Shown here piece after piece: positions 29,830 through 51,410 of a stretch of DNA of 64,000 nucleotides; the first letter of the stretch is position 1, and each line of letters opens with the position of its first letter. A program made the translations under genes and the position numbers. The stretch is from a virus: IMG/VR virus record IMGVR_UViG_3300025921_000697, positions 1 to 64,000 of that record; one strand, given 5' to 3'. The notes beneath the pieces were generated by a model. The model did no database searches. It was given only the letters and a program-made list of their open reading frames with translations, and was not told where the DNA came from.

Positions 29830-30390
29830 ATGATCTATTCAGTCAAAAGCGGTGGTAGTGTAGCGGTAGCACACGGCCCTTCCAGGGTTGAAGAGTGGTT
29901 CGAACCCACAACACCGCTCAAGATTTTACCTAATCTAAAACCTTCAATAGCCCTTGCATTTCGTAAAAGACATATCAAGGGCTTTATTGTTCCCGGAGGG
30001 TGCAATATTTATGTAGGTCTGCAACAAAAAGAACTCTTTGGTGTACTTGGTTTTAGTAATCCGGAATATGGAAATTTTGATCTTTTCATGAAGGCAGATA
30101 CAACACCTTCAGAGCTTGAATATTCCACAGATCTTTTACTTTATGTTATGCGGACAAAAGAAGTAAAATCAATACTCGAAAAAAAGTTCTGCAGAGAAAT
30201 AAAAACTGCTTATTCCCTTGCATTCTCCAGACACGACCAAATTAACCGCTATCGCAAACATGGCAAGCAAGTAAAAAAGCTGGCAATTGAAGGAGGCGGT
30301 TATAATCTCGGTTACATTTTTGAACTCGGAACCGTTCCATCGTTGAAAGCAGCAAAAGCGCTCTGGATGCAAAACCATAAAATCAAATGA
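29830..30390 (+). CDS. Unknown protein whose N-terminus overlaps the tRNA
   Basis: An ORF of 186 codons. The folded part from about residue 40 (SIALAFRKRHIKGFIVPGGC, LFGVLGFSNPEYGNFDLFMK, AYSLAFSRHDQINRYRKHGK, EGGGYNLGYIFELGTVPSLK) looks like a genuine alpha/beta protein, somewhat like GNAT or Mom-type modification enzymes. The only normal start in frame is ATG 29830, which makes the tRNA part of the reading frame; later in-frame ATGs would remove the core. The true start may be a rare codon near 29950. It overlaps the ParB-like gene by 4 bp. Confidence 0.5.
   Translation: MIYSVKSGGSVAVAHGPSRVEEWFEPTTPLKILPNLKPSIALAFRKRHIKGFIVPGGCNIYVGLQQKELFGVLGFSNPEYGNFDLFMKADTTPSELEYSTDLLLYVMRTKEVKSILEKKFCREIKTAYSLAFSRHDQINRYRKHGKQVKKLAIEGGGYNLGYIFELGTVPSLKAAKALWMQNHKIK
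29849..29918 (+). tRNA. tRNA-Gly(TCC)
   Basis: Cloverleaf: acceptor GCGGTGG/.CACCGC, D-arm GTGT-AGCGGTA-GCAC, anticodon stem CGGCC/GGTTG with loop CTTCCAG (anticodon TCC, reading GGA), T-arm GTGG-TTCGAAC-CCAC and discriminator T. The innermost acceptor pair is G-A, the outer T-stem pair is A-A, and the variable loop is short, so the molecule is somewhat divergent. No CCA is encoded. It lies within the start of the ORF 29830-30390. Confidence 0.7.
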
Positions 30391-33202: not shown

Positions 33203-34105
33203 ATGGAAAATTCTTTTAAACCTGATTATGTGTTCATAATCGAAACGCTGCAAACAGCAAAAGCCGGAATTGAATCAGTTACCAACCCGGAAATTCAGAT
33301 ACTTGTTACCCGGCTAAGGCTGGACCTGACAAAACATATTAACTTTTTAAAAGTCAGAATAGGTGATGCTCCTGATGCAGAATCCAGGCCGGCCAGAGAG
33401 CCGCTTAGAAAGATCTTCGGCATAGTCGTGCTGAATGATCATGGCCAGGCTATAAACCCTCAGCCAATCAAAACAACCCCGCGGGAATTGGAGATGGAAG
33501 AACTGAAGCAGAAGGTGGAGGACATTTACGGAAAGTTTGCAATCACAGAATCAGACCAACTTCTTGACACGCTCAGTGATATCGAAATCAGAGGTGTGGC
33601 AAAAAAAGCAGGATTACCGGTTACGGATAAAACGCCCAAAAGAATTGATATTTCTTTCATCGAAAAGATCAAGGAGGCAATTGTCAAACAACACTTAGCA
33701 GGTAATTTGGTTGTAGATGAATTGAATGATAAAATCACAGGCGGAGAAGGAAACAATGATGGAGATGATCTGGGAAAAGATGATCCGGATAATAAAGATG
33801 ATCCGGATAATAAAGATCAAAAATTTCTGGATTCACTGGATGCAGAAAAGATCAACGATGAAAACAAAAAAGTGTCAGATGAAGAAGGCGATGATCATGC
33901 ACAGGTAAATGGCAATCTTAAAATGTTGGACGAACTTTCTGCCCTGACAAACGCTGCAATTCTGGAAGCTTATGAAGAGAACCAAATTAAAGAATTTGCC
34001 ATGATGGCCAATCTTGAGGTAACTGACAAAACCAAAATCGACAGCAAATTTATCTCTCAATTGAAAGAAGCAATCAAAACACTGCATGCAGGTAACGATC
34101 AATGA
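33203..34105 (+). CDS. Acidic protein with two SAP/HeH-like repeats
   Basis: A 300-residue protein. A helical N-terminus is followed by a repeat near residues 115-155 (SDIEIRGVAKKAGLPVTDKT, then FIEKIKEAI) and a second near 255-298 (QIKEFAMMANLEVTDKTKID, then FISQLKEAI). The linker is acidic, with a tandem DDPDNK from an 18-bp DNA duplication near 33779-33814. The repeats resemble LEM/SAP/HeH-type nucleic-acid-binding helices. It is the first gene of the late region after terminase; it could be a head-associated or DNA-binding protein. Confidence 0.5.
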   Translation: MENSFKPDYVFIIETLQTAKAGIESVTNPEIQILVTRLRLDLTKHINFLKVRIGDAPDAESRPAREPLRKIFGIVVLNDHGQAINPQPIKTTPRELEMEELKQKVEDIYGKFAITESDQLLDTLSDIEIRGVAKKAGLPVTDKTPKRIDISFIEKIKEAIVKQHLAGNLVVDELNDKITGGEGNNDGDDLGKDDPDNKDDPDNKDQKFLDSLDAEKINDENKKVSDEEGDDHAQVNGNLKMLDELSALTNAAILEAYEENQIKEFAMMANLEVTDKTKIDSKFISQLKEAIKTLHAGNDQ

Positions 34106-34769
34106 TATTCAGTTTGATATTCCATTTGACACAGAACTGATTAAATTATCTGACTTTCTCGAGTGGCATAATCAATACGGTAAAAAACTAAACGAAGAGT
34201 TGAAACAGATCCTTGACGATAAAGATTTAAAGGATGTTGATAAAATGGTCCGATTGGAAGATTACCTGGACCGGGAAGCGCTATGCTGGTTTTGCTTCTG
34301 GACAAAAACAGATGAAGAGGAAGCAAGTAAACAACCAGGTATGGTTCAATTTCTTGATCGTTACCGTGTTTTAAAAACGCTTCTCAATGAGAACAATTAT
34401 GAATTTCCATATGAAACAGAGTGGCAGGGCGAACAATGGCAGATTGAAGCATTTACCTTGACCCCGGCAAGCGAAATGAATTTCAATGAAATCATCACTT
34501 CAAAAGAAGTAATGCGCCAGGTGTATAAGATCGGTGAAGACAATTGGACCGGACTCCCCTATCTGTGTTGTGTTTATTTCCGCAAGAAAGGTGAAGCATT
34601 TGAAGATTCAATGATTCACGAAGGAAGTGAACGAATGGAGTTGATGAATAGTTTACCACTGAAGCACGCGCTCGCTGTTGCTTTTTTTTTGAACATCTGT
34701 GTAAATATTTGGAGCAAAACTTTAGTGTCTTCTCAAGACGAAGTGGAGGAGACCGCAAGGCTGAACTGA
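34086..34769 (+). CDS. Putative tail-assembly chaperone, short form
   Basis: A 227-residue protein (TINDIQFDIPFDTELIKLSD, REALCWFCFWTKTDEEEASK, LTPASEMNFNEIITSKEVMR). Near its end (34682-34690) it crosses nine T residues, giving the slippery heptamer T-TTT-TTT in the reading frame. Ribosomes that do not slip end at 34769 after 26 more codons; those that slip -1 make a 292-residue product ending at 34963. This short/long pair is the hallmark of lambda G/GT-type tail chaperones. It lies 11 kb from the tape measure gene, farther than usual, so an alternative role is possible. Confidence 0.6.
   Translation: MQVTINDIQFDIPFDTELIKLSDFLEWHNQYGKKLNEELKQILDDKDLKDVDKMVRLEDYLDREALCWFCFWTKTDEEEASKQPGMVQFLDRYRVLKTLLNENNYEFPYETEWQGEQWQIEAFTLTPASEMNFNEIITSKEVMRQVYKIGEDNWTGLPYLCCVYFRKKGEAFEDSMIHEGSERMELMNSLPLKHALAVAFFLNICVNIWSKTLVSSQDEVEETARLN
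34682..34690 (+). promoter_or_regulatory. Slippery T9 sequence for -1 frameshifting
   Basis: Nine consecutive T between gct-gt-tgc and gaac. Zero-frame codons are GCT-TTT-TTT-TTG; one step back gives TTT-GAA. Homopolymeric T-TTT-TTT is a classical efficient -1 site. Confidence 0.6.
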
Positions 34770-34963
34770 TAGCATTCTATGAAGAGTGGGGCTGGGTAAA
34801 CTTTCTCAGTGCGATGGCCGAGACAAAGATTTTTGATATACCCGGAAGAGGACTTGACAGTATTGAGTGTGCAAAAATCGCGAAAGCATTTAACGTTTTG
34901 ATCTACGCCAGCCAGAGAAAAGATTATGCAATTGCGGAGTATGAAGCTTATAAAATCAAATAG
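34688..34963 (+). CDS. -1 frameshift extension of the tail-assembly chaperone
   Basis: The -1 frame from the T-run reads FEHLCKYLEQNFSVFSRRSG, then ELIAFYEEWGWVNFLSAMAE and ends at 34963. Taken alone this frame has only a TTG start (34709) and would begin in mid-helix, whereas the fused sequence continues the helix smoothly. I interpret it as the C-terminal part (about 91 residues) of the long form. It could instead be the result of a one-base T deletion in one gene. Confidence 0.6.
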   Translation, partial: FEHLCKYLEQNFSVFSRRSGGDRKAELIAFYEEWGWVNFLSAMAETKIFDIPGRGLDSIECAKIAKAFNVLIYASQRKDYAIAEYEAYKIK

Positions 34964-34990: not shown

Positions 34991-35755
34991 ATGAAAAAAC
35001 AAGCTATAATAATGAATACGGTTTTGATTTTGGCGGTAGTTTCAGTAGTAATATCTGCTTATTGCATTTTCTTCGGAATATTTAATCAGATAGTGGTAAA
35101 GTGTCTTGCAGTTGTAGGGAGTATTCTTTTGGCATTTATTGCCGTTTTTTTTTATAGCAATTCAAAATACAATAAGTTACCGATTGCAATTATTCTTTGT
35201 CTTTTCTCCTTTTCATCATTTGCGCAAAATACCGATTCTGCTCTTGAGGCTGGAACTAAAAAGGCGACACAAGAAATGGTTCGATTAAAGGAACAAGGCA
35301 TACGTGAAATAAACAAATGGACGCTTCCTCCGCACATGTTGAAAGCGACAGTTAATGAATTTTCAATTAAACCGTTGATAGGCAAGAAAGATATTTTGAT
35401 CTATGCGATGCAGTTTGTCTCCGGTGCAGCAGACGGTATGAATCAGGCTCTTGTTTATCATCATGCCCTCGCTGGCCATTCTTTCTGGGATTACAATACC
35501 AGTTGGAAAAGAAAATATGTTGATTACGATAAAGGAGATACGCGGGCGGCTTTTCCCGGGGCTAAAACATGGCTTGTAGGAATAACGGATGGAAATCATT
35601 TAACAAGAATGATAAACAGATCTTTCTCCTTAGGGAGTGTGATGATTGCTATGAATGAGAGTAACAGCTGGGTAGAAATTTTCAAAAAAATTATAATCTG
35701 CTCACTGATCAACCGGGCTGGATTTGTCCTAATGTATGATCACATTTTAAAATAA
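34991..35755 (+). CDS. Membrane protein with a second, internal signal-like segment
   Basis: A 254-residue protein with two transmembrane segments (about 6-28, IMNTVLILAVVSVVISAYCI; 33-55, VVKCLAVVGSILLAFIAVFF) followed by a third hydrophobic stretch LPIAIILCLFSFSSFAQ (62-78) that looks exactly like a signal peptide with a SFAQ cleavage site. The remainder is probably periplasmic or outer-membrane: FVSGAADGMNQALVYHHALA, GHSFWDYNTSWKRKYVDYDK. The build resembles that of the protein at 62644. Function unknown. Confidence 0.5.
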   Translation: MKKQAIIMNTVLILAVVSVVISAYCIFFGIFNQIVVKCLAVVGSILLAFIAVFFYSNSKYNKLPIAIILCLFSFSSFAQNTDSALEAGTKKATQEMVRLKEQGIREINKWTLPPHMLKATVNEFSIKPLIGKKDILIYAMQFVSGAADGMNQALVYHHALAGHSFWDYNTSWKRKYVDYDKGDTRAAFPGAKTWLVGITDGNHLTRMINRSFSLGSVMIAMNESNSWVEIFKKIIICSLINRAGFVLMYDHILK

Positions 35756-35792
35756 AAAACATAGAAAATTAAATTTTACTAAAGTGAATGCC

Positions 35793-36077
35793 ATGATACA
35801 CATTTTTAAAACTAAAAACGGACAGTTCTGCGTGGTGACCAAAGCAAATAACGGCGAAATACTCAATGTTTCTGAAACCTTCACACAGAAACAAAATGCC
35901 TGGAAAAATATTGGAGCCGCTGCCGACAGTTTTGGTTCGAAAAAAGTTTTAGTTCAGGATGATTGTTTGAAGATAAAGTCAAAGGTATATGTGTGTCGTA
36001 TAGGAGATAATTTGAAAATGAATATAGCTGAGTCATGCATAGTGAATGCTGAGCCAAGGCATGTAAGCAAAAAATAG
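35793..36077 (+). CDS. DUF1508/YegP-like small protein
   Basis: A 94-residue protein from ATG 35793 (a GTG at 35784 is the alternative). IHIFKTKNGQFCVVTKANNG followed by EILNVSETFTQKQNAWKNIG has the YegP layout, a duplicated beta-hairpin-helix unit of unknown function, here in a single copy. Confidence is moderate. It precedes a 150-bp stretch in which I see nothing, and then the tRNA-Met. Confidence 0.45.
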   Translation: MIHIFKTKNGQFCVVTKANNGEILNVSETFTQKQNAWKNIGAAADSFGSKKVLVQDDCLKIKSKVYVCRIGDNLKMNIAESCIVNAEPRHVSKK

Positions 36078-36227
36078 TTCTTTACTCATCCATAAGCATC
36101 TGCTCGAATAAGCAGGCCGATATAAGCTGGTCACGTAGTTTATAATTGACTTGATACAACCAGAAAACTTTTTAGGGTTGCTGCGAACTAAGGCAGAAGG
36201 CTTTTGGGAAAATTTAAAATGAAAAAT

Positions 36228-36299
36228 CGCGTCGTAGAGCAGCGGTAGCTCGCTGGGCTCATAACCCGGAGGCCGCAGGTTCGAGTCCTGCCGACGCAA
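36228..36299 (+). tRNA. Initiator-type tRNA-Met(CAT)
   Basis: Cloverleaf: acceptor CGCGTCG/CGACGCA, D-arm GAGC-AGCGGTA-GCTC, anticodon stem CTGGG/CCCGG with loop CTCATAA (anticodon CAT), variable AGGCC, T-arm GCAGG-TTCGAGT-CCTGC, A73. It has the three marks of bacterial initiator tRNA: a C1xA72 mismatch, three consecutive G-C pairs in the anticodon stem and the A11-T24 pair in the D stem. No CCA is encoded. This is a phage-borne initiator tRNA, not an elongator. Confidence 0.8.
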
Positions 36300-36317
36300 C
36301 ATAAAACCATAGAGAAA

Positions 36318-36407
36318 GGTTGATGCTGAAATTAAGATAAGAGATTAGGTAAACGGATTAGCTAACCAGGAACCGAAATTGATTATCCTAACAAGTAGGC
36401 ATCAACC
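36318..36407 (+). ncRNA. Structured RNA candidate beside the tRNA
   Basis: A perfect 9-bp closing stem GGTTGATGC (36318-36326) and GCATCAACC (36399-36407) encloses about 72 nt that include TTAGG/CCTAA and a TTAGCTAA palindrome. No ORF of note. It is not a tRNA: there is no T-arm and no anticodon arm. It lies 19 bp after the initiator tRNA and may be released with it. Confidence 0.4.
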
Positions 36408-36431
36408 AAAGAAATTTTAAAATTGAATTAT

Positions 36432-36836
36432 ATGTTTGAAGAACAATTATCCGAAGAACAATTACAGAAAAAAATTGATGCTCTTAAAGCAGAATTAGAG
36501 CCATTAGAAAAACTGCAAAGGGAAAACTATATAAAAAAGGAAGATGAAGTTCAGCTAAAACTAAAGAGATGTAAAAGCAAACAAGACAAATTTGAATTGG
36601 AAGATCTTGTTTTTGCTGCTTTTTCTCGCTGTAATTGCGGAGCAGGTTTAGCATATCCCAAACATATAGGTATTCATGGGTACTGGATGTGCTCAGATAT
36701 TTTATTAGGAAGGGCAATTCCACATGGACAAGAAGGATCAAAAGAACATAGTGGTGAATTTCCATTTGCATTCTATGAAATAAAAAGTGATACTCAGCCT
36801 TCAGCACAGGGAAATACAACTCGTCCAAAAGAATAA
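36432..36836 (+). CDS. Coiled-coil protein with CxC patch
   Basis: About 134 residues from ATG 36432 (TTG 36423 is possible). Residues 1-55 are a charged coiled coil (EEQLQKKIDALKAELEPLEK); the middle has RCNCGAGLAYPKHIGIHGYW, which resembles a partial zinc site, and the C-terminus is polar. No family recognised. Confidence 0.5.
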   Translation: MFEEQLSEEQLQKKIDALKAELEPLEKLQRENYIKKEDEVQLKLKRCKSKQDKFELEDLVFAAFSRCNCGAGLAYPKHIGIHGYWMCSDILLGRAIPHGQEGSKEHSGEFPFAFYEIKSDTQPSAQGNTTRPKE

Positions 36837-36841
36837 AACCA

Positions 36842-37480
36842 ATGATCAAAGTAAATCTATATACAAAAAATGGAGAGCTGGTAATAACAGTAATGACACC
36901 TCCGTTTAACCCGATGCCTGATTGCATAGCGTGGGGCAGTCGCTTTTTCTTCAAAAACCCGGACTTTAAAAAGAAAGACGAATCCGGTTATTACGAAGGT
37001 CTTATCGTTGCTGCAATCAATGTTGTTACCCGGGAAACATCAATAAAAAGAGAGACAGACAAGAAAGAGTATGGAAATGATGATCTTCTGTTTGGCCTCC
37101 CAAATGATCTTGACGAAGCGGTAGAAACATTTCTTGAATTCTATAGCAAGTCAGAAGATTTTCAGCTGATTGATAATTGCACGGAGGACAAATTTCTCTG
37201 TGTCACTCATCATGCATCCGGACAGTTTATAAGAAACAGCTGGTATTTGTGGTGGCATGAAGATCATGGATCCGATTCATGGCCCAAGTCAAAACCGCAG
37301 CTGGTGCAGTGGTTTAATAACCTTGGCATTTATCACGCCGATGATATGAGTTCGATCATTATCAGATCCGCATACCGGCGTCATCACAAACAAGCAATAT
37401 TAATTGAAAAACAGGTAAGCCATTACAGAAAGTTTTGGAAAGAACAAGGCTTTGAAGATGGCATTTATAAACCCAGATAA
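36842..37480 (+). CDS. Hypothetical protein
   Basis: A 212-residue alpha/beta protein (TPPFNPMPDCIAWGSRFFFK, NSWYLWWHEDHGSDSWPKSK, YHADDMSSIIIRSAYRRHHK). It starts 5 bp after its neighbour. No family recognised. Confidence 0.5.
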   Translation: MIKVNLYTKNGELVITVMTPPFNPMPDCIAWGSRFFFKNPDFKKKDESGYYEGLIVAAINVVTRETSIKRETDKKEYGNDDLLFGLPNDLDEAVETFLEFYSKSEDFQLIDNCTEDKFLCVTHHASGQFIRNSWYLWWHEDHGSDSWPKSKPQLVQWFNNLGIYHADDMSSIIIRSAYRRHHKQAILIEKQVSHYRKFWKEQGFEDGIYKPR

Positions 37481-38565: not shown

Positions 38566-39207
38566 ATGCAGGAACTCTTTTTATATGATGAAGAAAACGG
38601 CCTATTCAAGCAAATACTGAAAAAATCTTCAGTACTGAAGGGAAGCTATCATGTTTCTCCAAATCAGGGCAACGACCTGAACACATCCAACCTGGAAACT
38701 TATATAAAAGATCCGGCAAAAGGATTGATTGATTTTAAAAATTATCCTATCTGCGTTTGCTTCACGCCCAGAAGCAGGATAATTCCTATCAATGGTCAGG
38801 ATTTCGAGCAGTTCACATTTAATCTCTATTGGCTAACAACCACCTTCAGGAATAGTGACAATTCTGTAAAAATGAGAGACAAAGACACCGGCCAATCTGC
38901 ACATCATATTTGGTATGACTGGCAAGACATGAAGTCATGCGCAATGAATTTTTACAGTGTGCTTAACCAGGTCATCAAGTCCAAAAATGTTATGGTCGAT
39001 AGTGTCGCAGTTCCTTTGCGGTCCATGATAAACCTGGATAAAGGAAGTGTGATTTATAACCGCCTGTCAAAATTTTATAATGATTCTTTATCCGGAATAA
39101 GCCAGGCCTTTACGATGACTATGCAACCGCTTGAATGTGATCAGACAGAGTACGCTGATATAAATAGTATTACGATACCCTCACCAACTATACACGAAGA
39201 TGTTTGA
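38566..39207 (+). CDS. Virion-region hypothetical protein
   Basis: A 213-residue protein (GSYHVSPNQGNDLNTSNLET, PICVCFTPRSRIIPINGQDF, EQFTFNLYWLTTTFRNSDNS) with mixed fold. It lies in the neck/tail-completion neighbourhood and overlaps the next gene by 8 bp. Probably structural; no family named. Confidence 0.5.
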   Translation: MQELFLYDEENGLFKQILKKSSVLKGSYHVSPNQGNDLNTSNLETYIKDPAKGLIDFKNYPICVCFTPRSRIIPINGQDFEQFTFNLYWLTTTFRNSDNSVKMRDKDTGQSAHHIWYDWQDMKSCAMNFYSVLNQVIKSKNVMVDSVAVPLRSMINLDKGSVIYNRLSKFYNDSLSGISQAFTMTMQPLECDQTEYADINSITIPSPTIHEDV

Positions 39208-39759: not shown

Positions 39760-40257
39760 ATGGAAACAAACCCATCCATATTTGAACCGGCCAACAGATT
39801 AATTGTTGAAGATATTCGAACAGAGCTTCGACTGCAGGGGCATTATCTTACCGGGGCTTTGGAAGCTTCAATTCATGATGAAGAAATCCATGAGAATGGC
39901 GGCATTACGCTTACGGCTTCAGCGCTTGAATATTTGGAAGATCTCGAAACAGGCATTGCGGCCCCTCAAATAGAACTCTCATCCAGCAGGCTTACTGAAA
40001 TGACAAGATACGTGGAACTGCGAATGGGTTATCATGGAAAGAAAGCGACAAGTGTGGCTTATGCCATCATCAAGAAACAACAAAAGGAAGGAATGCCAAC
40101 ACACGGCTCTTATGCTTTTTCAAAAACAGGTTTCAGAACTGAGGTCATGGAGCAAACGTTTGACAAGAATCAGCCAAAATTTGTAAACTTAATCGACACA
40201 GCTGCATTTAATTCACTCGACAATATTTTTAACCAGGTTAAATCAGGAACAATATGA
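39760..40257 (+). CDS. HK97 gp10-like neck/tail-completion protein
   Basis: A 165-residue protein with the layout of HK97 gp10-type proteins: a helix ANRLIVEDIRTELRLQGHYL, TGALEASIHDEEI, then ALEYLEDLETG and a helix-rich C-terminus (TSVAYAIIKKQQKEGMPTHG). Such proteins terminate the tail tube or join it to the neck. The assignment is moderate; the G-x-L-x-x-S-I and LExG patterns are the basis. Confidence 0.55.
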   Translation: METNPSIFEPANRLIVEDIRTELRLQGHYLTGALEASIHDEEIHENGGITLTASALEYLEDLETGIAAPQIELSSSRLTEMTRYVELRMGYHGKKATSVAYAIIKKQQKEGMPTHGSYAFSKTGFRTEVMEQTFDKNQPKFVNLIDTAAFNSLDNIFNQVKSGTI

Positions 40258-40743: not shown

Positions 40744-42327
40744 ATGCCAATAATATCCATCATAGAACAGCCCTCAGCAAACGCACTTAAAGCAGCTTAC
40801 CGTCCTATCGTTTTCGTGGTCAGAGCATCCAGAACCGATGGCAACGCAAAGCCTCCGATTGTTTATTGTGATATCTATATTGATGATGTATTCTATAAGA
40901 CACAGGAACGCACCATTTATAAAACGCTCAATTCAACAAATAGCGATTGGCAATTCGATATCATGGATGCAGTCCAGGAAGTTTTATCATCAACAATTCA
41001 ACAAAACGGCGGATCAGCAATAGTAAAAGATTCCCTGGCCATGCGTTCGGTTTATTGCAAATTCAGGTCCTCCGGATATGATGTAAATAGTTTCATTACT
41101 TCAGAAGGAACGGCCCCGGTTCAGGGAACAGGAACAGTAAATCCGGTAGCAGGCACCGGCACGCAATCGAACTCTTTTTTTGGGGTGATATCTACATTGC
41201 AGCATGAACAAAACCAGGATGCAGCAACGCATTTGGGTTATTATAAAACCGGTACCTGGGATGCAAACGTTTTTCCTTTGACGCACAGGAAACCCGGGTA
41301 TAAGGTTTGTAAAGGAGACAGTGATTATTTTCCGATCGTAAACCTGAGCAGCAAAGACCCTCTTTGTTTAAAATTATTTTATAAAAAAAGGGGTGATGCC
41401 GCTTACTCTTCAGTTCAACAGTGTGGATCTTCAACCTGTGCGGCTGTTTCTATTCCAACAATTTCATTTGCTGATGCGATCGTTGACACGCCTTATTCGA
41501 AAACAGTTCCCTTGGGCGGTACGGCGCCGTTTAACCTATCAAGCTTTTCGTCAACAGCTGCCTGGCTTCGTGCAGACATTGTCGGAAGTGATTTGGTTTT
41601 CAGCGGAACTCCGGCAGCCGGAGATGTAGGAACGAACAAAGCGGTAAATGTTATTGTAACAAACGCATGCGGATCTGCGAGCGCTTATAAATCGATCAGT
41701 GTAGTAAGTGGTTGTACTGCTGTGGGTATTTCCGGAACACCTTTGCTTCCAGATGCATATTCTGATCAGCCATATTCTGCTGCCGTCATTCTTACCGGCA
41801 CAGGACCATTTAATATAACAGTACAACCTGATGTGGCTTGGCTCGTGGCTGATATTTCAGATAACGAAGTAATTCTGACCGGCACACCTGGAATTGGAGA
41901 TGTGGGCACCGGTATTACTGTAGCTTTTACGGTTACAAACGGCTGCGGATCGGTTGATTATTCAGACACGATTGATGTCATTCAAAGTGGAACGAGGTTC
42001 GGTGATACAACTTTCAACGGCGGCGATGATTGGAACGAATCTGAAACTGCCAATATCATCGGCGGCCAGCCAGGAGCAACAATTACAATAACGCTCGACA
42101 CATTGACCAATACAAACGGCGGCCAGCTGAAAGTAAATGGCTTGCAAGCCTTCCAGGGATACACGTGGAATATTGTTTTGGATTCAAACGGTAACGGATC
42201 ACTCGATGTTGATATAGCTGGATTAGAGCACCCATCAACGTCTATCCTTGGACACTTCACAGTTACTTCTGTTACCGGCGGAACAATAGGAACGCCAAAC
42301 ACCTATCAAATATCAAAAGCTTTTTAA
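40744..42327 (+). CDS. Virion protein with tandem Ig-like domains
   Basis: A 527-residue protein. The first 225 residues (SANALKAAYRPIVFVVRASR, NSFFGVISTLQHEQNQDAAT) form a late-protein domain common in Bacteroidota phages. Two putative Ig/He_PIG-like repeats follow, each ending in VTNACGS or VTNGCGS with the G-T-P-x-x-G-D-V-G motif (about 235-335 and 340-420), then a beta-rich C-terminus. Ig-like modules in tail or head proteins usually bind surface sugars. Probably exposed on the virion. Confidence 0.65.
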   Translation: MPIISIIEQPSANALKAAYRPIVFVVRASRTDGNAKPPIVYCDIYIDDVFYKTQERTIYKTLNSTNSDWQFDIMDAVQEVLSSTIQQNGGSAIVKDSLAMRSVYCKFRSSGYDVNSFITSEGTAPVQGTGTVNPVAGTGTQSNSFFGVISTLQHEQNQDAATHLGYYKTGTWDANVFPLTHRKPGYKVCKGDSDYFPIVNLSSKDPLCLKLFYKKRGDAAYSSVQQCGSSTCAAVSIPTISFADAIVDTPYSKTVPLGGTAPFNLSSFSSTAAWLRADIVGSDLVFSGTPAAGDVGTNKAVNVIVTNACGSASAYKSISVVSGCTAVGISGTPLLPDAYSDQPYSAAVILTGTGPFNITVQPDVAWLVADISDNEVILTGTPGIGDVGTGITVAFTVTNGCGSVDYSDTIDVIQSGTRFGDTTFNGGDDWNESETANIIGGQPGATITITLDTLTNTNGGQLKVNGLQAFQGYTWNIVLDSNGNGSLDVDIAGLEHPSTSILGHFTVTSVTGGTIGTPNTYQISKAF

Positions 42328-42900
42328 ATGAGTAAATCAATTTATCATATTCCCTGCGGTCCTAAAAATTTAGCGACAATTTTCAATACGGTTGATTTTA
42401 ATCTGGTGACGGATTATTATCTGCAGGTTCAAGACGCTTCGAATAATGTCCTGGCCACGACACCGGGGTATAAATCAAATTGCTGTTGCCCGGATGATAA
42501 AATCAGATTGCACTTTTTAAACAGCGTTGGGGGTTGGGATGCGCTTAACTTTTTAAAACCAAGTGTAGTCCATGAAGATACGGCTGATCAATTTCAAAAT
42601 TCTCTGAATTATCCTTTGTCAAAAACTGATACGGGTATAGAAAGGTTTAACGTCAACAGTAATGATACATGGGAAGCAAGATCGAATTTAAAAGAAGAGG
42701 ACATGCCCTGGGTTCGTGAGCTGGCAGATTCTCCGAAGATCTTACTCGAATGGACAGGCATAGAAGGACAAGCTGATGACTACATCCCGGTAGTAAAGAT
42801 CGCTGGCAAATTTCCGAAGCTTAAAAACGATCAGGAATTTCAATATCAGTTTGTTATCCAGTTCATGTTTAGCAATGCGTATATGACAATCAGAAATTAA
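42328..42900 (+). CDS. Tail-region protein
   Basis: A 190-residue protein (SKSIYHIPCGPKNLATIFNT, SNCCCPDDKIRLHFLNSVGG, EFQYQFVIQFMFSNAYMTIR). Its adjacency (no gap) to the Ig protein suggests they act together in the tail. No family named. Confidence 0.55.
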   Translation: MSKSIYHIPCGPKNLATIFNTVDFNLVTDYYLQVQDASNNVLATTPGYKSNCCCPDDKIRLHFLNSVGGWDALNFLKPSVVHEDTADQFQNSLNYPLSKTDTGIERFNVNSNDTWEARSNLKEEDMPWVRELADSPKILLEWTGIEGQADDYIPVVKIAGKFPKLKNDQEFQYQFVIQFMFSNAYMTIRN

Positions 42901-42907
42901 AATAAGT

Positions 42908-42991
42908 ATGGAATCTTCAGCAGATATTTTAGTTGTAATAATATTGGTGTTTATAATGCTCGCATTGGCCTCAAATAGCAGCAACCACTAA
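42908..42991 (+). CDS. Tiny transmembrane peptide
   Basis: A 27-residue ORF (MESSADILVVIILVFIMLAL then ASNSSNH) with one hydrophobic helix. It lies 7 bp after the tail gene; its expression is not certain. Confidence 0.35.
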   Translation: MESSADILVVIILVFIMLALASNSSNH

Positions 42992-43002
42992 ACTTGAAAA
43001 GA

Positions 43003-43287
43003 ATGAAAGCAGATCAAAAAATTACAATAATAGGTTCCGGAATAGCGGCCAGGCAATTGAGAGAATATTATAAATCGCCTGTGGTAATAGTTAGTCCTCC
43101 GAAATTAACGGAAGATGAAAGAAAAAAGATGATTGATCAGCTTAATGGTTGTAGTGGAAGAGCGATGTTGACCATAGAGCAGCCAGAAATTGAATTCATT
43201 CCATTCGTCAGTCCGAAACATGCCCGGTTTATCAAATATGCGATGCCTAATAAAAAGCAGTACCAGGTAAGAACAAAAAAAATGTAA
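43003..43287 (+). CDS. Small late hypothetical protein
   Basis: About 94 residues from ATG 43003 (TTG 42994 possible). It starts with MKADQKITIIGSGIAARQLR, which has a glycine loop GSGIAA but is far too short for a nucleotide-binding enzyme. The C-terminus is basic. Unrecognised. Confidence 0.45.
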   Translation: MKADQKITIIGSGIAARQLREYYKSPVVIVSPPKLTEDERKKMIDQLNGCSGRAMLTIEQPEIEFIPFVSPKHARFIKYAMPNKKQYQVRTKKM

Positions 43288-43294
43288 AAGTACA

Positions 43295-45646
43295 ATGCCA
43301 CTTTCCCGATATTTAAAAGTAACAATTGGCGACAAACAGGTCCAGGTCACCAATCCGGAAGATCTTCCTATATCCATAGATTATGCTCTGGAAGATCCTG
43401 ACAACTTTCAAACAAAAACTTCCGCTCAGGCACTTTCGGTAAAGATACCGGCAACGAAACTCAATGATATTGCAGCAAACACTTTCCGCAATCCGGACAT
43501 GGTCGATTTAACAACTGACAATGTTTTTAAAAGCAATCAGCCGTTCAACATAGACGAAAATGGTTTTGAGATATTAACCGGCAAAGCTTTTTTAAAATCC
43601 GGGACTCACAACTTTCGTCCAATAGATTATACCTATGATTTTTACGGAGATAATGCAGACTGGAAAATTGACCTTGCTGATTCGACCTTATTTGACTTTT
43701 TAAAATACTTGAACTTTGATTTAACACCGGAAGAAATAATTGCATCATGGGATTTCGATGGAACAGATCCTGCCAAGCCGTATGTTTTTGCTCCGATCAG
43801 ATTCCGCGATCCCATGGGCGGTACTTCTTTAGATGATCAGGGTAAGGTAGTTGCTGACGATGTCAACATGCTACCGATCTACATGAAGCCATCCATTTCA
43901 AAATATTGGATCATCTTCAATGCATTCAAATCAATAGGCTACAGAGTGGTATCAGCTTTCATGGATAGCGATAAATTTCGCAGACAAGTAATGCCCTGGG
44001 CCTGGGGAAACTTTTTAGATAGTGATGGAACGCGGCTTAACACGCATTTATTCCTTGCCAAAAGCACGAAAGATGTTTATTACAGCTTCCCGAATGGGTA
44101 TAAAAATTTTATCTGGAATCTTGATGTAAGCAATGATAATGGAAGTGATGGATCAGGAGGGTTTGATAACAACAATGATTATGCATGGAATGCCGGCACT
44201 CTTTCAGGAGAGTGGACTTACAACACTCCGGATTACGGCGCCTTAGAAGCTACGTTCGATATGCAGATTGATGTAAATGCCCGGTTAAATGGTGAAAGTT
44301 CAAACATAAAGCTTGAAATCCTATGGTATAAAAACGGCGTGCTACAGCAGACAGATACGCCAGTTAATTTAGGCGGCACACTCATCGGAGGCCGGCAGGA
44401 TATCGATATCAAAGATGTTTTCTTCACTACAACTGTATCACAGGGTGATGTTGTTTCCGCAAAATACAGGTTATCAGGATCAGCTGCCAAATTAGGTTTT
44501 GCAAGCATCACAGCAAACGTTTTGGAATTTAAATTAGCTTACTTCAGGATTCCTTTAGGAGGTGTAATAGATTTTAATAATTATACCGGCCTGCAGAATT
44601 ATAAATTTTTGGATTTTTTTAAAGGAGTGATTGATGAATTCAACATGAGTTTAAAAGCAGATGCCAAAAATAAAATCCTGTACATTGAACCAACGCACGC
44701 CTATCCGGAAGGAGATGATTTTAGCGTGAAACAACCCGGTTATTTTAAAGAGGATTTCATTTCGTGGGATGGCAAAGAAGATCTTAGCCAAACATGGGAG
44801 ATGGATAATTATTCAGACTTCAATCGGGAACTGACTTTTAAATATAAGGATGACAGCAACGACGGTATTTTGAAACTTATTCAGGACCGCAACCTGGTAA
44901 CACTTGCTTCAGGGAAATATGTGTTCCCGAAGCGTTTCCAAACCGGCAAGTCATCGATAGAAAATTCTTTTTTTGCAGCAACAATGCATTATGAGGTTGA
45001 TCAGTGGAAAGGACTTGGAACGGGAAGCAATACCGGCATTTCTCCTCAAATGGTTTGCATGGTACCTGAAAACATTTCAAACACTTCAAAGGATTCAAGC
45101 CAAAATACTTTTATTCCCAAATCCTGCTATTACAAAGGAAATATTGAAGGCGTCGGCGCATGGAAATTTAACGGAGTAGTTTATCAAACATTTCCCTACA
45201 TGTTTTCCGTCAATTATAAACCGGGTGGCCAGAACGATCCAATACTTTCATACTCTGACGAAAAGATTTCCAATGGCACCGGAGGTTATGTGATCGGTAA
45301 AGGTTTACTAAAAAGATACTATTGGCAGCGCCTGGCCATTATCCGGAATGGCCAGTGGTATAACTGCTGGTTCAGACTTAAAAATGTTGATGTCGCAAAT
45401 CAGCTGCACCGGGAATACAAATCTTACAAAGGCCAGCTGTGGGAGTTGATCAACATAACCAACTATCAGCCATTAGCGGAAAAACCTTCGCAGGTTCTTA
45501 TGAGAAGATGGGCACCAGTCAGCCAGGAAGATTTTAATAACACTTATCCATCAAGCGCGAACGTTTTATCGAATAATTCTACTGATAAACTGGATATTAA
45601 GTACGCCCTGTTGAAGTGTTTGCCCAATGACATCCCAGTTTTATAA
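43295..45646 (+). CDS. Large tail (baseplate-like) protein
   Basis: A 783-residue, beta-rich protein beginning PLSRYLKVTIGDKQVQVTNP. Proteins of this opening are found directly upstream of the tape measure gene in Bacteroidota phages and are taken as distal tail or baseplate components. It has the acidic, aromatic composition of virion proteins (EWTYNTPDYGALEATFDMQI; YKPGGQNDPILSYSDEKISN). It starts 7 bp after the previous gene and ends the tail operon; the late palindrome copy 2 follows. Confidence 0.6.
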   Translation: MPLSRYLKVTIGDKQVQVTNPEDLPISIDYALEDPDNFQTKTSAQALSVKIPATKLNDIAANTFRNPDMVDLTTDNVFKSNQPFNIDENGFEILTGKAFLKSGTHNFRPIDYTYDFYGDNADWKIDLADSTLFDFLKYLNFDLTPEEIIASWDFDGTDPAKPYVFAPIRFRDPMGGTSLDDQGKVVADDVNMLPIYMKPSISKYWIIFNAFKSIGYRVVSAFMDSDKFRRQVMPWAWGNFLDSDGTRLNTHLFLAKSTKDVYYSFPNGYKNFIWNLDVSNDNGSDGSGGFDNNNDYAWNAGTLSGEWTYNTPDYGALEATFDMQIDVNARLNGESSNIKLEILWYKNGVLQQTDTPVNLGGTLIGGRQDIDIKDVFFTTTVSQGDVVSAKYRLSGSAAKLGFASITANVLEFKLAYFRIPLGGVIDFNNYTGLQNYKFLDFFKGVIDEFNMSLKADAKNKILYIEPTHAYPEGDDFSVKQPGYFKEDFISWDGKEDLSQTWEMDNYSDFNRELTFKYKDDSNDGILKLIQDRNLVTLASGKYVFPKRFQTGKSSIENSFFAATMHYEVDQWKGLGTGSNTGISPQMVCMVPENISNTSKDSSQNTFIPKSCYYKGNIEGVGAWKFNGVVYQTFPYMFSVNYKPGGQNDPILSYSDEKISNGTGGYVIGKGLLKRYYWQRLAIIRNGQWYNCWFRLKNVDVANQLHREYKSYKGQLWELINITNYQPLAEKPSQVLMRRWAPVSQEDFNNTYPSSANVLSNNSTDKLDIKYALLKCLPNDIPVL

Positions 45647-45719: not shown

Positions 45720-48700
45720 ATGTCAGAGCCAATTATAAACCGCATTTATGACCTGAAAATCGCAGGTTATGATGATTCGATGGCCAAAGTGGAAGCGCTG
45801 ACAAACGCTTTCACGAAAATGGATGAGGTTAAGCGGAAATTAAATACGCAGCTTCAGGAAAAAGTCAATGCCGGTGACACGGATGCTGTCACACAACTCA
45901 CCAAAAAGATTGCCGATCTTGAAAACCAGATGGCAAACCTGAAAACTCAAAGAGATTCGGCTGCCAAGGAAGAGGCATTACTTGCTAAAGCAGAAAAGGA
46001 CCGTGCAGATGCCTTACTTAAAACTCAAAAAGCAGAGGAATCAGTTGCCAAAACAGAACAAATAAGAATAAACTCGACCATTGCACAGGAAAAGGAATTG
46101 GACCGGCAAATCGCTTTGGAAGAAAAGCAGGCTCAACAGCTGGCTAAAGAAAAAATATCCATCGACGCACTCGAAGGAAGTTACAACCGTCTGAAAGAAC
46201 AGCGCCTGCAACTGGAATCTTTCACTGCTAACAGCAATCCAGGTTCCACCTTCAATTTAAACGGAAGTCTGATCGGATATGATGAGGCGATTGCCAAAAT
46301 CAAGGAGATCAAGGGACAGGAGCAGCAATACCTGGATCAGCTAAAAATTGAAAAAGAAAGTCAGGCATCGATCATCAAAGGTCTTCAGGAAAAAATTACC
46401 CAGATAAAAATTGAGCGGCTGGAACTTGAAAAGGTTGTCAGCACATCACAAGCTGGTGAGTCTGTAACTTTTAAGGGTCAAACGATTAATTATACCGAAG
46501 CTATTGCTCAAATCAATGAACTCAAAGCAGCTGAGACACAATTAACGCAAGATCTTTCCTCACAAGGAGTTCAGACAAAAGAGCTTTCAAATAATTATTA
46601 CGGATTACTGGCAGCTCAGAGAGAAGCGATTAATTTATACCGCAATACTGATTTTAATTCTCCCATCTTCCAGGAAGTAAAATTGCAGGCCCAAGAAGCG
46701 ACAGACAAGGTACAGGCATTTAACCGGTCACTTTCTCCGGATGGTACCTTGGTTGGTGAATATAAAACAGGTATTATCAATGCCTTTAAAAACCTTGGCC
46801 TGACTGATGTTTTAAAAAATCAGCGAGCACAATTGCAGGCTGAGTTTGATCAATTAAAAAATCAAAATGAATCACTGGTTTCTGAATATTGGAAAGCAGG
46901 ATCAGCCGGCACGACAGCATTCAGGGATGTGGAAGCACAACTCAGAAGAAATGTTGAACAACAGGAACAAATCAGATCTTCTTTAAATAACCTGGATAAC
47001 TCTTTACGAAATACCGGGTCCGTGGGTGCGCAAATTTCTGAAGGTATCGCAAGCGGCTTCAAAAATGTCAAATCGCAGATCGGCCAGGTACTTGTTGCTT
47101 ACGTTGGCTTCCAGGCCATTTTTCAGGGAGCGCTTAATCTTTTGCATACGAATACAGAGTTAAGCGACAGTATCGCTCAATTGCAGATTTATATTCATGG
47201 TACTACAGAGGAAGCAAATAATTTGGTTGATGTCTTAAAAAAGATACCTACACGAACATCCTTGCCAAATCTTGTGGATATAGCTACAGCAGTTGCGCAA
47301 AAAGGAGTTGCAAAAGAAGAGATCGGTGAAGTAACACAGGCGTTTGACCAGCTCTTTACGGCACTGGGCAAAGATGCCGGTGATCCGCACCAGGGAGTGC
47401 TTACAATTGCGAAATTGATCAGTATTTTCCACGATGATCATGAAGTAACCGCTCAGAGAGTCAGGGAATTGGGAAATGCAATGTTTACCCTGCAAAGTTC
47501 AGGCCCGGTGTCAGGTGAATTTTTGCAATCATATGCTGAAAGAGTCGGCGCAGTAAGAAGTATAACCGGTGCGACTATCCCTCAAATTTTGGGTATGGGA
47601 GCCGCTTATCAGCAATTAGGCCAACGCGAAGAAGTTGCCGGCAGCGCCACAAGCATTTTACTCACCAAAATGATTTCAAATGTAGAGAAGTTTGCGTCAG
47701 TATCTGGCATCAGCGTGGAAAAACTTCGTGCAGTTATAAAAGCAAATCCGTTTGAAGGACTTTTGGAAGTTGCTGAAAAACTGAAAGAAAAAGGCAATGA
47801 TGGTGTAGAGGCAATGGTTAAACTGGTTGGTGATTTGGGTGTGAATAATGTGAGAGCAAAGGGCGCATTCTCTGAGTTGATCAATAATGCAGATTTGTTC
47901 AGGGCAAAAATGGAACTTGCAGGTAGTGCGCTTAGTTCCACATCAAGCTTGACAACCGCTTTCGAAGAAAAACAAAAAACGTTTGGCGCCACTATTGCCG
48001 AAATAGGAAAAGAACTCCAGATCGCTTTCAGTAATGAAAACTTTTTAAAAGTTTTGAATGGCGTATCGCTGGTATTACTAACAATCATCCGGGTGATTAC
48101 CGCTATTCCTTTTTCAGTGATAGTCGGAGGAATTACGGCCATGTCTGCCGCCTGGTTATTTTATAAAGGAAATCTGACCTTAACCCGTCTGGAACAAATG
48201 GCAAACAATGAAGCCACGCTTCTTGGGTATGTTCGTTTAAATATTCTAAAATCAGGTTTATTCGGTGCGGCCGCGGCAGAACAGGCGAGAGCAGCATCCA
48301 TCCAGAGAACGAATGCAGCGGTGGTTTTAAAAATAGCCTCCATCAATTCAGAAATAGCCGCTGAAAATGGCGCTATTGCTGCCCTGGAAGCAAGGGTGGC
48401 AGCTGATGCGGAACAATCAGTTGTTTTAGAAGGAGAAATTACTGCAAGACGTGCTCATGTACTGGCATTAGAAAGTGAGGTTGCTGCTCTCGACAGTGCA
48501 ACGCTTGCCACCGATGGTTTAAATGTTGCGACAAAAGCTTCTCCGCTTGGAATAATTCTCGGTATAATTGCTTTGGTTGTACCGGCAATTAGTGCCTTTG
48601 GAAAATCCACCAACAATGCAACTAAAGAAATTTCAGAACAAAATAAACAGCTTCGCCTGAATGAGCAAATTCAGGGAGAGGTTGCAAAAAGTGTGTCTGA

Positions 48701-51410
48701 TAGTACAGCATCACAAATTTCCCATGTTACCCAGTTAATAGCCGTTTTACAAGATCACACGAGTAAAACTTACCTCTTAAAAAAAGCATACGATGCATTG
48801 ATCAGTATTGCCCCAGAATTTGCAGGTGTATATGATGGTGAAAAAGTAAACCTGGAAAAACTCAATGAACTGTATCCGATCTACATTGCCAATCTGAAAG
48901 CTGTTTCAGAGGCAAAGGCACTCGCATCCATCCGGGATAAATATGCTCAGGAACAGGCTGATGCTGAAGTCGCTGCATTCCAAGCGAAGCTAAAAGCAGA
49001 TCAGGAGCAAAAAGAGAATGCTGAGATAGAAAAAAATAATAAAAAACTGGTGGCTACTCCGGCCTTCGGAAGCCCAGGAATCGGAGCATCAACCGCTGCC
49101 CTTCCTCTTGGTAAAACTTCAGATGTAGCACAGAAAAATTTTGAACAAAAACAAGCAGAGGTAAAAAAAGCAGCTGAACAAACCGCAGCCCTCGATGCTT
49201 ATCTGGCCGGCGATTTGAAGAGCAGGCAAAAAAGAATAGCAGATCTTACTGCTGAGCTATCAAAACTGAAGAAAGGCACTGATGAATACAATAAAATATA
49301 CACTGAGCTTGAAACACAGAAAAAAAGTTTGGAAGTTGTTTCCGGAATTCCCGATGCCGCTCCGCAGGCACCTGGAATCGGCGAAAGAACTATTGCTGAA
49401 ATAAAAGCAGACTTAAAAAAAGCGAACTCAGATTTTGAACATGCCATAAACGGTTCACCTGAGAAGGAGGAATTGAAAAAGAAGATAGCAGCATTGAAGC
49501 AGGAGTTAATAGATGCCGGTGGAGCGAAGCCGGCTCCCTACAAAGGCGCTCGTCTTTCCGGAGTTCAAAAAGATTTGTTTAAGGATATTGATGCGCAGAC
49601 CGATCAGGAGATCACTGAAGAAAAATTAAAATTCAAGCAACTGCAGGAAGATGAAGAGACTTATTTGACAAATGTGCTCAAGATCAATACCGATGCCGCT
49701 AATAAGAAAATTGCTGCACTCGATGGTAGTAATGCTGAGGAAAGAAAACAAATAGCGCAACAAAAACTCTTCATCATTGAGCAGGAAGAAGAAACGAATA
49801 AAAAGTTATTCGACCTGCAGAAAAAACAATTAGATGCAAATTTCGCCAGCATTATAAATCAGGCTAAACTCGCGTTAGAAAAAACGAATGAAGATCCTAC
49901 AAAAACGGATCAGGAGAAAAGGAAGGCAAAGGCCGATTTCCTGGCCGCCGAATATCTTCTTGAAGCAACATATGATTACCAGGTTGATCAGCTCGAAACA
50001 AAATACAATCAGCGGTCAGTTGAGAATGCACAAAAAAGAAAAGATGCATTGCTACAGATTTCTCATGATATCAGTAAGACAGACCTTGAAATCACGGTTG
50101 GCACTTTGCAGGCTATTGATGATTCCACAGGAAAAGCTGTAGCTGAAATAAAGTTGAAGTATGATAAGCTGATTCAGGATATTTTGAAAAGCAATCAAAG
50201 TCTTCAGAATAAGACGTCAGCAATAAAAATTCTTACTACCACTGAAGACGTGGAAACCGGCGGGGTGCAATTGAAAGGAGATGTAGCAAAAGTTTTGGTA
50301 GCAAAGCAACTTTTGGATTTTGGACTGATTACAAAAAAACAATTTGAGGAAATATATGCCGCTGCAAATGAAGGCCAGAAAAAACTGAATAATGCTATCC
50401 AGGAAGGGAAAACCAGCATTACCTCTATGAGCGCCGTTTTGGAGAAATCCCTTGGGAAATTATTTGGCTTTGGAAAAGAGAGTGGCCAGGCGCAACTTTT
50501 GGCTCAGACCATTACCGATGGGTTCGGAACTGCGAAAAATGCAATGGATTCTTATTTTGAGGCGGAACAGAATAATATCGAGCATAGCAATCAAATCACA
50601 CAGCAAAGGTTAGATATTGAATTGCAACAGGCGAAATCCAAAGCACAAAGCCAGGCTGAGCAGGATTCACTCGATCGGCAATTCCAGGCCAAAAAGGAGG
50701 CAGCGGATAAGGCAGCATTTGAGAAAAATAAAAAGCTTCAGATCGAACAGGCAAAAATTAACCTGGCAATTCAATTATCAAATTTGGCCGTGATTGCTTT
50801 TGCTCCAAACCCGTTGAACATTGCTACTTTGGGAGTCGCGGGCACAATCATGTACGCAATTCAGGCGGCGCTTGCCTTCGCCAATTATGCCCTCAATGTA
50901 AGTAAGATCAATTCGGCTCAATTTGCGGCAGCTGGTGGTGGTAAAGTTCCAAAACTTCCAAACGGAAAAGTTACAAATCCATCAAATATTCCTACACAGC
51001 CAAACGGCGACAACGTTTTGGCAACGGTAAAAACCGGTGAAGTGCTTCTGAATGAAGAGCAACAGCGGAAAGCTGGTGGTGACGAATTCTTTAGAAGGCT
51101 TGGTGTACCTGGATTTGCAGATGGCGGAAGGATTCAGGCTTTTGCGTCCGGAGGTTATGCCGGCATAGGAAGTGAAGAGTTGGGAGGATCATTAAAGGCT
51201 CCTATTAATCCACGATCTTTTTTGTCAGGCAATACATCAAATCTTTTTGAAGAAAACAGCCGTCAGATATCTGCATTAGCAGGACTGATTGAAGAAACAG
51301 GCCGGCAAGTTCATCAAAGAATTGACAAATTACAGGTTGTACTGGACCCGGCAAAGGTTGACCGGGCAAACAACAAAACTAAAAAAGCTACTGCAATAGG
51401 AAAATTATGA
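45720..51410 (+). CDS. Tail tape measure protein
   Basis: A 1896-residue protein. Coiled coils fill the first 320 residues (NAFTKMDEVKRKLNTQLQEK; LKAAETQLTQDLSSQGVQTK) and again about 1300-1530. A TMP-like region (VGFQAIFQGALNLLHTNTEL; MGAAYQQLGQREEVAGSATS) covers 450-700. Hydrophobic segments lie near 785-815 (VSLVLLTIIRVITAIPFSVI), 940-960 (LGIILGIIALVVPAISAF) and 1685-1720 (NIATLGVAGTIMYAIQAALA), then a Gly-rich tail with GFADGGRIQAFASGGYAGIG. Tape length suggests a long siphovirus tail (about 280 nm at 0.15 nm per residue, a rule-of-thumb value). Confidence 0.9.
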   Translation: MSEPIINRIYDLKIAGYDDSMAKVEALTNAFTKMDEVKRKLNTQLQEKVNAGDTDAVTQLTKKIADLENQMANLKTQRDSAAKEEALLAKAEKDRADALLKTQKAEESVAKTEQIRINSTIAQEKELDRQIALEEKQAQQLAKEKISIDALEGSYNRLKEQRLQLESFTANSNPGSTFNLNGSLIGYDEAIAKIKEIKGQEQQYLDQLKIEKESQASIIKGLQEKITQIKIERLELEKVVSTSQAGESVTFKGQTINYTEAIAQINELKAAETQLTQDLSSQGVQTKELSNNYYGLLAAQREAINLYRNTDFNSPIFQEVKLQAQEATDKVQAFNRSLSPDGTLVGEYKTGIINAFKNLGLTDVLKNQRAQLQAEFDQLKNQNESLVSEYWKAGSAGTTAFRDVEAQLRRNVEQQEQIRSSLNNLDNSLRNTGSVGAQISEGIASGFKNVKSQIGQVLVAYVGFQAIFQGALNLLHTNTELSDSIAQLQIYIHGTTEEANNLVDVLKKIPTRTSLPNLVDIATAVAQKGVAKEEIGEVTQAFDQLFTALGKDAGDPHQGVLTIAKLISIFHDDHEVTAQRVRELGNAMFTLQSSGPVSGEFLQSYAERVGAVRSITGATIPQILGMGAAYQQLGQREEVAGSATSILLTKMISNVEKFASVSGISVEKLRAVIKANPFEGLLEVAEKLKEKGNDGVEAMVKLVGDLGVNNVRAKGAFSELINNADLFRAKMELAGSALSSTSSLTTAFEEKQKTFGATIAEIGKELQIAFSNENFLKVLNGVSLVLLTIIRVITAIPFSVIVGGITAMSAAWLFYKGNLTLTRLEQMANNEATLLGYVRLNILKSGLFGAAAAEQARAASIQRTNAAVVLKIASINSEIAAENGAIAALEARVAADAEQSVVLEGEITARRAHVLALESEVAALDSATLATDGLNVATKASPLGIILGIIALVVPAISAFGKSTNNATKEISEQNKQLRLNEQIQGEVAKSVSDSTASQISHVTQLIAVLQDHTSKTYLLKKAYDALISIAPEFAGVYDGEKVNLEKLNELYPIYIANLKAVSEAKALASIRDKYAQEQADAEVAAFQAKLKADQEQKENAEIEKNNKKLVATPAFGSPGIGASTAALPLGKTSDVAQKNFEQKQAEVKKAAEQTAALDAYLAGDLKSRQKRIADLTAELSKLKKGTDEYNKIYTELETQKKSLEVVSGIPDAAPQAPGIGERTIAEIKADLKKANSDFEHAINGSPEKEELKKKIAALKQELIDAGGAKPAPYKGARLSGVQKDLFKDIDAQTDQEITEEKLKFKQLQEDEETYLTNVLKINTDAANKKIAALDGSNAEERKQIAQQKLFIIEQEEETNKKLFDLQKKQLDANFASIINQAKLALEKTNEDPTKTDQEKRKAKADFLAAEYLLEATYDYQVDQLETKYNQRSVENAQKRKDALLQISHDISKTDLEITVGTLQAIDDSTGKAVAEIKLKYDKLIQDILKSNQSLQNKTSAIKILTTTEDVETGGVQLKGDVAKVLVAKQLLDFGLITKKQFEEIYAAANEGQKKLNNAIQEGKTSITSMSAVLEKSLGKLFGFGKESGQAQLLAQTITDGFGTAKNAMDSYFEAEQNNIEHSNQITQQRLDIELQQAKSKAQSQAEQDSLDRQFQAKKEAADKAAFEKNKKLQIEQAKINLAIQLSNLAVIAFAPNPLNIATLGVAGTIMYAIQAALAFANYALNVSKINSAQFAAAGGGKVPKLPNGKVTNPSNIPTQPNGDNVLATVKTGEVLLNEEQQRKAGGDEFFRRLGVPGFADGGRIQAFASGGYAGIGSEELGGSLKAPINPRSFLSGNTSNLFEENSRQISALAGLIEETGRQVHQRIDKLQVVLDPAKVDRANNKTKKATAIGKL

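Follow-up and report, generated by a model that had tools for sequence, protein, structure and literature searches.

Recoding in tail-chaperone genes has long been known. In phage lambda, a low-level ribosomal -1 shift yields gpG and gpGT, in which the G part binds the tape measure and the T part binds the tail tube; by comparison with A_AAA_AAG, U_UUU_UUU is a poor slip site in E. coli (PMC5009743). Thermus dnaX and IS elements are described as using transcriptional slippage on runs of nine A or T, and it is at this length of A or T that a large proportion of bacterial genomes show evident selection against slippage (PMC1088944). Here we describe a gene pair in a stretch of 64,000 nucleotides (hereafter the window), which is part of a 76,287-base IMG/VR virus record. 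The pair carries a run of nine T's (T9), which we regard, with a probability of roughly 0.8, as a site of programmed -1 recoding in the gene of a tail-assembly chaperone, giving a short and a long product. The pair is carried by a Bacteroidota phage, probably one of Chitinophagales.

The T9 run occupies positions 34682-34690 of the plus strand, where frame 0 reads GCT TTT TTT TTG. Within it, T_TTT_TTT (34682-34688) is in phase and fits the slippery heptamer pattern X_XXY_YYZ. The pair and its upstream neighbour are arranged as follows:

33203..34105, plus strand: conserved upstream neighbour of 300 aa, overlapping the start of the pair
34086..34769, plus strand: short-form ORF, G-like, 227 aa, with its N part homologous to relatives
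34688..34963, plus strand: -1-frame extension, T-like, 91 codons and a stop, forming the C-terminal end of the long form

The upstream neighbour had no match in Pfam. Residues 1-201 of the short-form ORF are common to both products and residues 202-227 make up the 0-frame tail, while the -1 frame runs to its stop at 34961-34963, giving a long form of 201+91 = 292 aa. An earlier note on this DNA had placed a T9 at 34682-34690 and proposed forms of 227 and 292 residues, with a -1 frame of about 91 residues that lacks its own ATG. The window sequence bears out the run, the ORF and its shifted translation return the same numbers, and the first start codon listed for the -1 frame, a TTG, lies past the run, at 34709. 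In the clade to which the window belongs, the conserved parts of the extension are FFF[E/D] and EWGWxNFL...SIECAK.

Synonymous-codon shuffles of the window genes gave an expectation of 0.68 T runs of at least nine (sd 0.76), against two observed. Since the shuffles already produce 0.68 on average, a lone T9 is only mildly unusual and counts as weak evidence; the case for recoding rests instead on the conservation of the run across relatives. The second T9 of the window (35145-35153, within ORF 34991-35755) reads GTT TTT TTT TAT, like the marine slip site described below, and was not counted as a recoding site, its -1 frame being only 48 codons long and its gene being found in none of the relatives searched. 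For shorter runs in the coding regions of the window, A runs of at least eight were rarer than in synonymous shuffles (11 vs 17.5), and T runs of at least eight were not (4 vs 2.3).

The short form alone, used as a query, found no match in viral contigs or in phages, and a two-sequence profile found none in genome contigs. After the short-form queries had drawn blank, a first relative (L002) was reached through the neighbouring terminase gene, TerL, and its gene was split as in the window, with an identical T9. Later profile searches brought in further contigs and then 43 loci plus three bacterial genomes with homologues of the pair, namely a Flavihumibacter MAG, Chitinophaga tropicalis and Taibaiella lutea. 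A marine-type profile yielded 80 further loci, and L068-L070 and L152-L154 came from searches of whole genomes. Comparison by hhalign showed homology between the window-type and marine-type profiles across 232 columns (97.7%, E 2e-12). The relatives include a cultured phage, Nonlabens phage P12024L, in which the T9 lies in gp40 and gp41 is its -1 extension; gp40-gp41 correspond to phrog_32199, for which no function is named, and were deposited as two hypothetical genes. The separate deposition of gp41 (NC_018272; 8525-8692 in locus L060) means that the public annotation misses the recoding.

The earlier note had proposed a search for a similar pair in related phages. Such pairs were found in more than 100 related phage sequences, down to very low protein identity, with the T run and the -1 split in the same place, and every frame-shifted relative examined carried a T9 or T10 there. 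None of these more than 100 frame-shifted loci had a T7 run, a T8 run or another slippery heptamer. Within the window clade, the site reads GCT or GGT TTT TTT TTG in 13/13 loci listed, and the -1 split with T9 recurs in 12 diverged lineages, as it does in prophage L068. The marine clade has xTT TTT TTT T.. at its slip site (26 loci); among the marine loci scored together by script, the -1 relationship was present in 82/82, with T9 in 78 and T10 in 4. T9 is found again in the very diverged, separate deep clades L069/L070, L153 and L154. A run of at least nine T's therefore occurs in either of two codon phases, xxT TTT TTT TTR and xTT TTT TTT Txx.

Across the 12 diverged lineages, 39 amino-acid columns are invariant and the codon varies in 35 of them; the codon-invariant columns are the three Phe codons of the T run and one GAT, with no others. 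In the overlap region both frames are open and both are partly conserved. No common RNA fold was found downstream of the site among the relatives (z-scores -2.5 to +1), and a shared stimulator structure was rejected on that ground. A tRNA was the sole Rfam match around the slip site. Judged by this comparison across relatives, the T run is a real selected signal, neither a mutation nor a sequencing error, and a selected -1 recoding event joining the two frames is very well supported.

One clade appears to have replaced the slip site with two genes. In the Taibaiella lutea prophage (L008 = L022 = L059), L023 and L024, the long form is encoded in one frame with no T run, and about 1.2-1.6 kb past this gene each of them carries an additional, shorter homologue. 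The fused forms constitute one clade (96/93 in the tree), as do the short paralogues (83/95), which have long branches. The grouping of the three T9-less loci as one clade points to one replacement event and not three. Where recoding was lost, a short gene was gained, which suggests that both products are needed.

This clade bears on two readings that would do away with recoding altogether. The frame break could be a random mutation or a homopolymer sequencing error, given that homopolymers are prone to errors and that an uninterrupted frame exists in one clade, and the earlier note had taken relatives of this kind as a sign of such an event. They do exist, yet they imply no error, as the short form has a separate gene there, and the same T9 and -1 split occur in independent records, a cultured phage as well as isolate genomes and metagenomes among them. 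The comparative data thus refute this reading and leave it a negligible probability. It is also very improbable that the -1 frame is a separate, unfused downstream gene with an internal start, which is how P12024L is annotated, the ATG of gp41 overlapping the stop of gp40: conservation in the -1 frame sets in at the T run itself, upstream of internal start codons, and the two-gene clade encodes the fused form directly.

Downstream of the pair, the window contains the following genes of the tail block:

38566..39207, plus strand: predicted tail terminator, from its predicted fold (model mean pLDDT 79.1)
39760..40257, plus strand: tail completion / Neck1-like gene, from weak matches of its homologues in relatives
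40744..45646, plus strand: three conserved genes without assigned function (40744, 42328 and 43295), between the pair and the tape measure
45720..51410, plus strand: tape measure protein, 1896 aa (PF10145 PhageMin_Tail, E 9.3e-11, above its cut-off)

Foldseek matches of the 38566 model were mostly tail terminators or neck proteins, among them those of A-1(L), 7-7-1 and NF5, T5 p142, lambda gpU and T4 gp15 (best E 2e-4, with modest TM-scores), and in relatives that lack the cargo a homologue of this gene follows the pair immediately or almost so. The 39760 protein of the window itself had no tail completion / Neck1 match; it is homologous to its L059 counterpart, and members of this family in relatives matched phrog_5 (L059, 2.6e-4; L018, 0.028). 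In P12024L, gp43, two annotated genes past gp41, had a tail completion match at 4.2e-4. The conserved order of the block is pair, tail terminator, tail-completion-like gene, structural genes and tape measure.

The distance from the pair to the start of the tape measure gene is 4.6-7.8 kb in relatives and 10.8 kb in the window. Positions 34991-37480 of the window hold non-conserved genes and a tRNA-Met (36228-36300, also matched by Rfam) and resemble inserted cargo; the genes at 34991 and 36842 were found in none of the relatives searched. This stretch accounts for part of the extra length in the window, and the 11 kb that had been called unusual in the earlier note is the family norm plus the insertion. 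The wider region (31056-60869) has an unusual module order of terminase, tail genes, tape measure, Clp-type protease (55288), capsid candidate (57212) and portal (59409). Upstream of it, ARAGORN predicted a tRNA-Gly at 29849-29919, within ORF 29830-30390.

The gene neighbourhood and the two-product logic make a tail-assembly chaperone role likely. The "probable tail chaperone pair" of the earlier note gains support from the tail-terminator fold, the tail-completion matches in relatives and the tape measure, together with the same two-product logic. The predicted structure of the L059 long form is mostly helical (mean pLDDT 90.9). This model had no meaningful fold match in the PDB, its best viral structure matches were uncharacterised phage proteins, and in BFVD there were very weak fold matches to annotated tail chaperones (E 0.46 and 1.3). 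No entry in Pfam, PHROG or NCBIfam names the protein a tail chaperone, and hhalign against lambda G was not significant. The lack of a link, by fold or by sequence, to known tail chaperones, and the position of the gene before the tail terminator and far from the tape measure, would suit a protein whose recoding is real but which acts at a different step of the virion (neck, connector or head) instead of chaperoning the tape measure. We consider that unlikely, as short and long forms made through a -1 shift in the tail block are typical of tail chaperones, and the very weak matches in BFVD, such as they are, point the same way.

Under the tail-chaperone reading, most products would stop in frame 0 as the G-like form of 227 aa, and a minority would go on in the -1 frame to a GT-like form of 292 aa, whose C terminus carries an additional helical domain. 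If lambda is a guide, the tape measure may be coated by the short form and tail-tube subunits recruited by the long form, with the shift frequency setting the short:long ratio. The molecular step would be slippage dependent on run length. Both frames and their -1 relation, the conserved run and products, the two-gene replacement and the tail setting can be read directly from sequence; the slippage itself, its rate and the chaperone role are inferred.

Either the RNA polymerase or the ribosome may slip. A T9 is approximately as long as the RNA:DNA hybrid, and the invariant run length makes polymerase slippage a serious candidate. We give slippage of the polymerase on T9, with T10 transcripts as the outcome, about an even chance, which puts it slightly ahead of ribosomal tandem slippage on U_UUU_UUU, at somewhat under even odds; the two routes yield the same fusion protein and may operate together. 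Ribosomal -1 frameshifting on U_UUU_UUU could also be the sole mechanism, the two extra T's being due to coding constraints in both frames. It fits this account that every relative has the heptamer in phase, that the chaperone shifts in a published review are ribosomal, sometimes weak and stimulator-free (PMC5009743), that a conserved downstream structure is neither required nor seen, and that both frames are constrained in the overlap, where coding may keep the extra T's. On the other hand, no relative has turned to another heptamer although U_UUU_UUU is poor, and T7 and T8 are missing while both codon phases sum to nine. Moreover, A/G/T/Y are tolerated before the Phe pair in window-type sequences and Y/W/S/C after it in marine ones, so T8 runs look allowed by coding. 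A ribosome-only mechanism is therefore possible, though we would bet modestly against it.

That the total length stays constant in both codon phases speaks for a process that depends on length, although two-frame coding constraints may also produce such constancy. A T7 heptamer combined with these constraints can yield a T9, so run length alone is no proof of polymerase slippage. The third Phe codon of the run is TTT in 12/12 lineages vs 45% elsewhere; as a sign of an excess over the heptamer this was given lower weight, since 0-frame coding may keep the T. Taken as a whole, the proposal that a deeply diverged Bacteroidota phage family sets its chaperone ratio by slippage of the polymerase and not of the ribosome, and that one clade has switched to duplication, is tentative and falls a little short of an even chance.

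A literature search returned no description of this family, of a uniform T9, of the position before the tail terminator or of the two-gene replacement. The pair represents a tail gene family of Bacteroidota phages that lacks annotation and whose only recoding signal is the strictly kept T9; gene callers split or truncate its genes. With the T9 pair one could cleanly test whether slippage of the polymerase can take over from ribosomal frameshifting in fixing a chaperone ratio, and the clade that has two genes instead of the slip site would serve as a natural control.

The window pair resembles lambda gpG/gpGT in having a -1 shift late in the first frame, two products with a common N-part of which the second is longer, a place in the tail gene block and no conserved stimulatory RNA structure. 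The two differ in that no homology between them was detected, in that the site in the window family is always T9 (rarely T10), and in that lambda G-T directly precedes the tape measure gene H, whereas the window-type pair sits ahead of the tail terminator and 4.6-10.8 kb upstream of the tape measure. Direct adjacency to the tape measure, which is usual but not strictly defining for lambda-type chaperones, was found in none of the members measured. Of the lambda G/GT layout recognized in the earlier note, the two -1-joined frames, the common N-part, the heptamer and the tail block stand, and a place directly upstream of the tape measure does not. With the genes that use slippage on 9A or 9T, the pair has in common a selected run of at least nine identical bases and predicted short and long products; unlike them, the window run also holds an in-phase ribosomal heptamer. 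P12024L gp40-gp41, where the recoding is unannotated and the run has the other codon phase, is a homologous pair with the same T9 and the same -1 shift.
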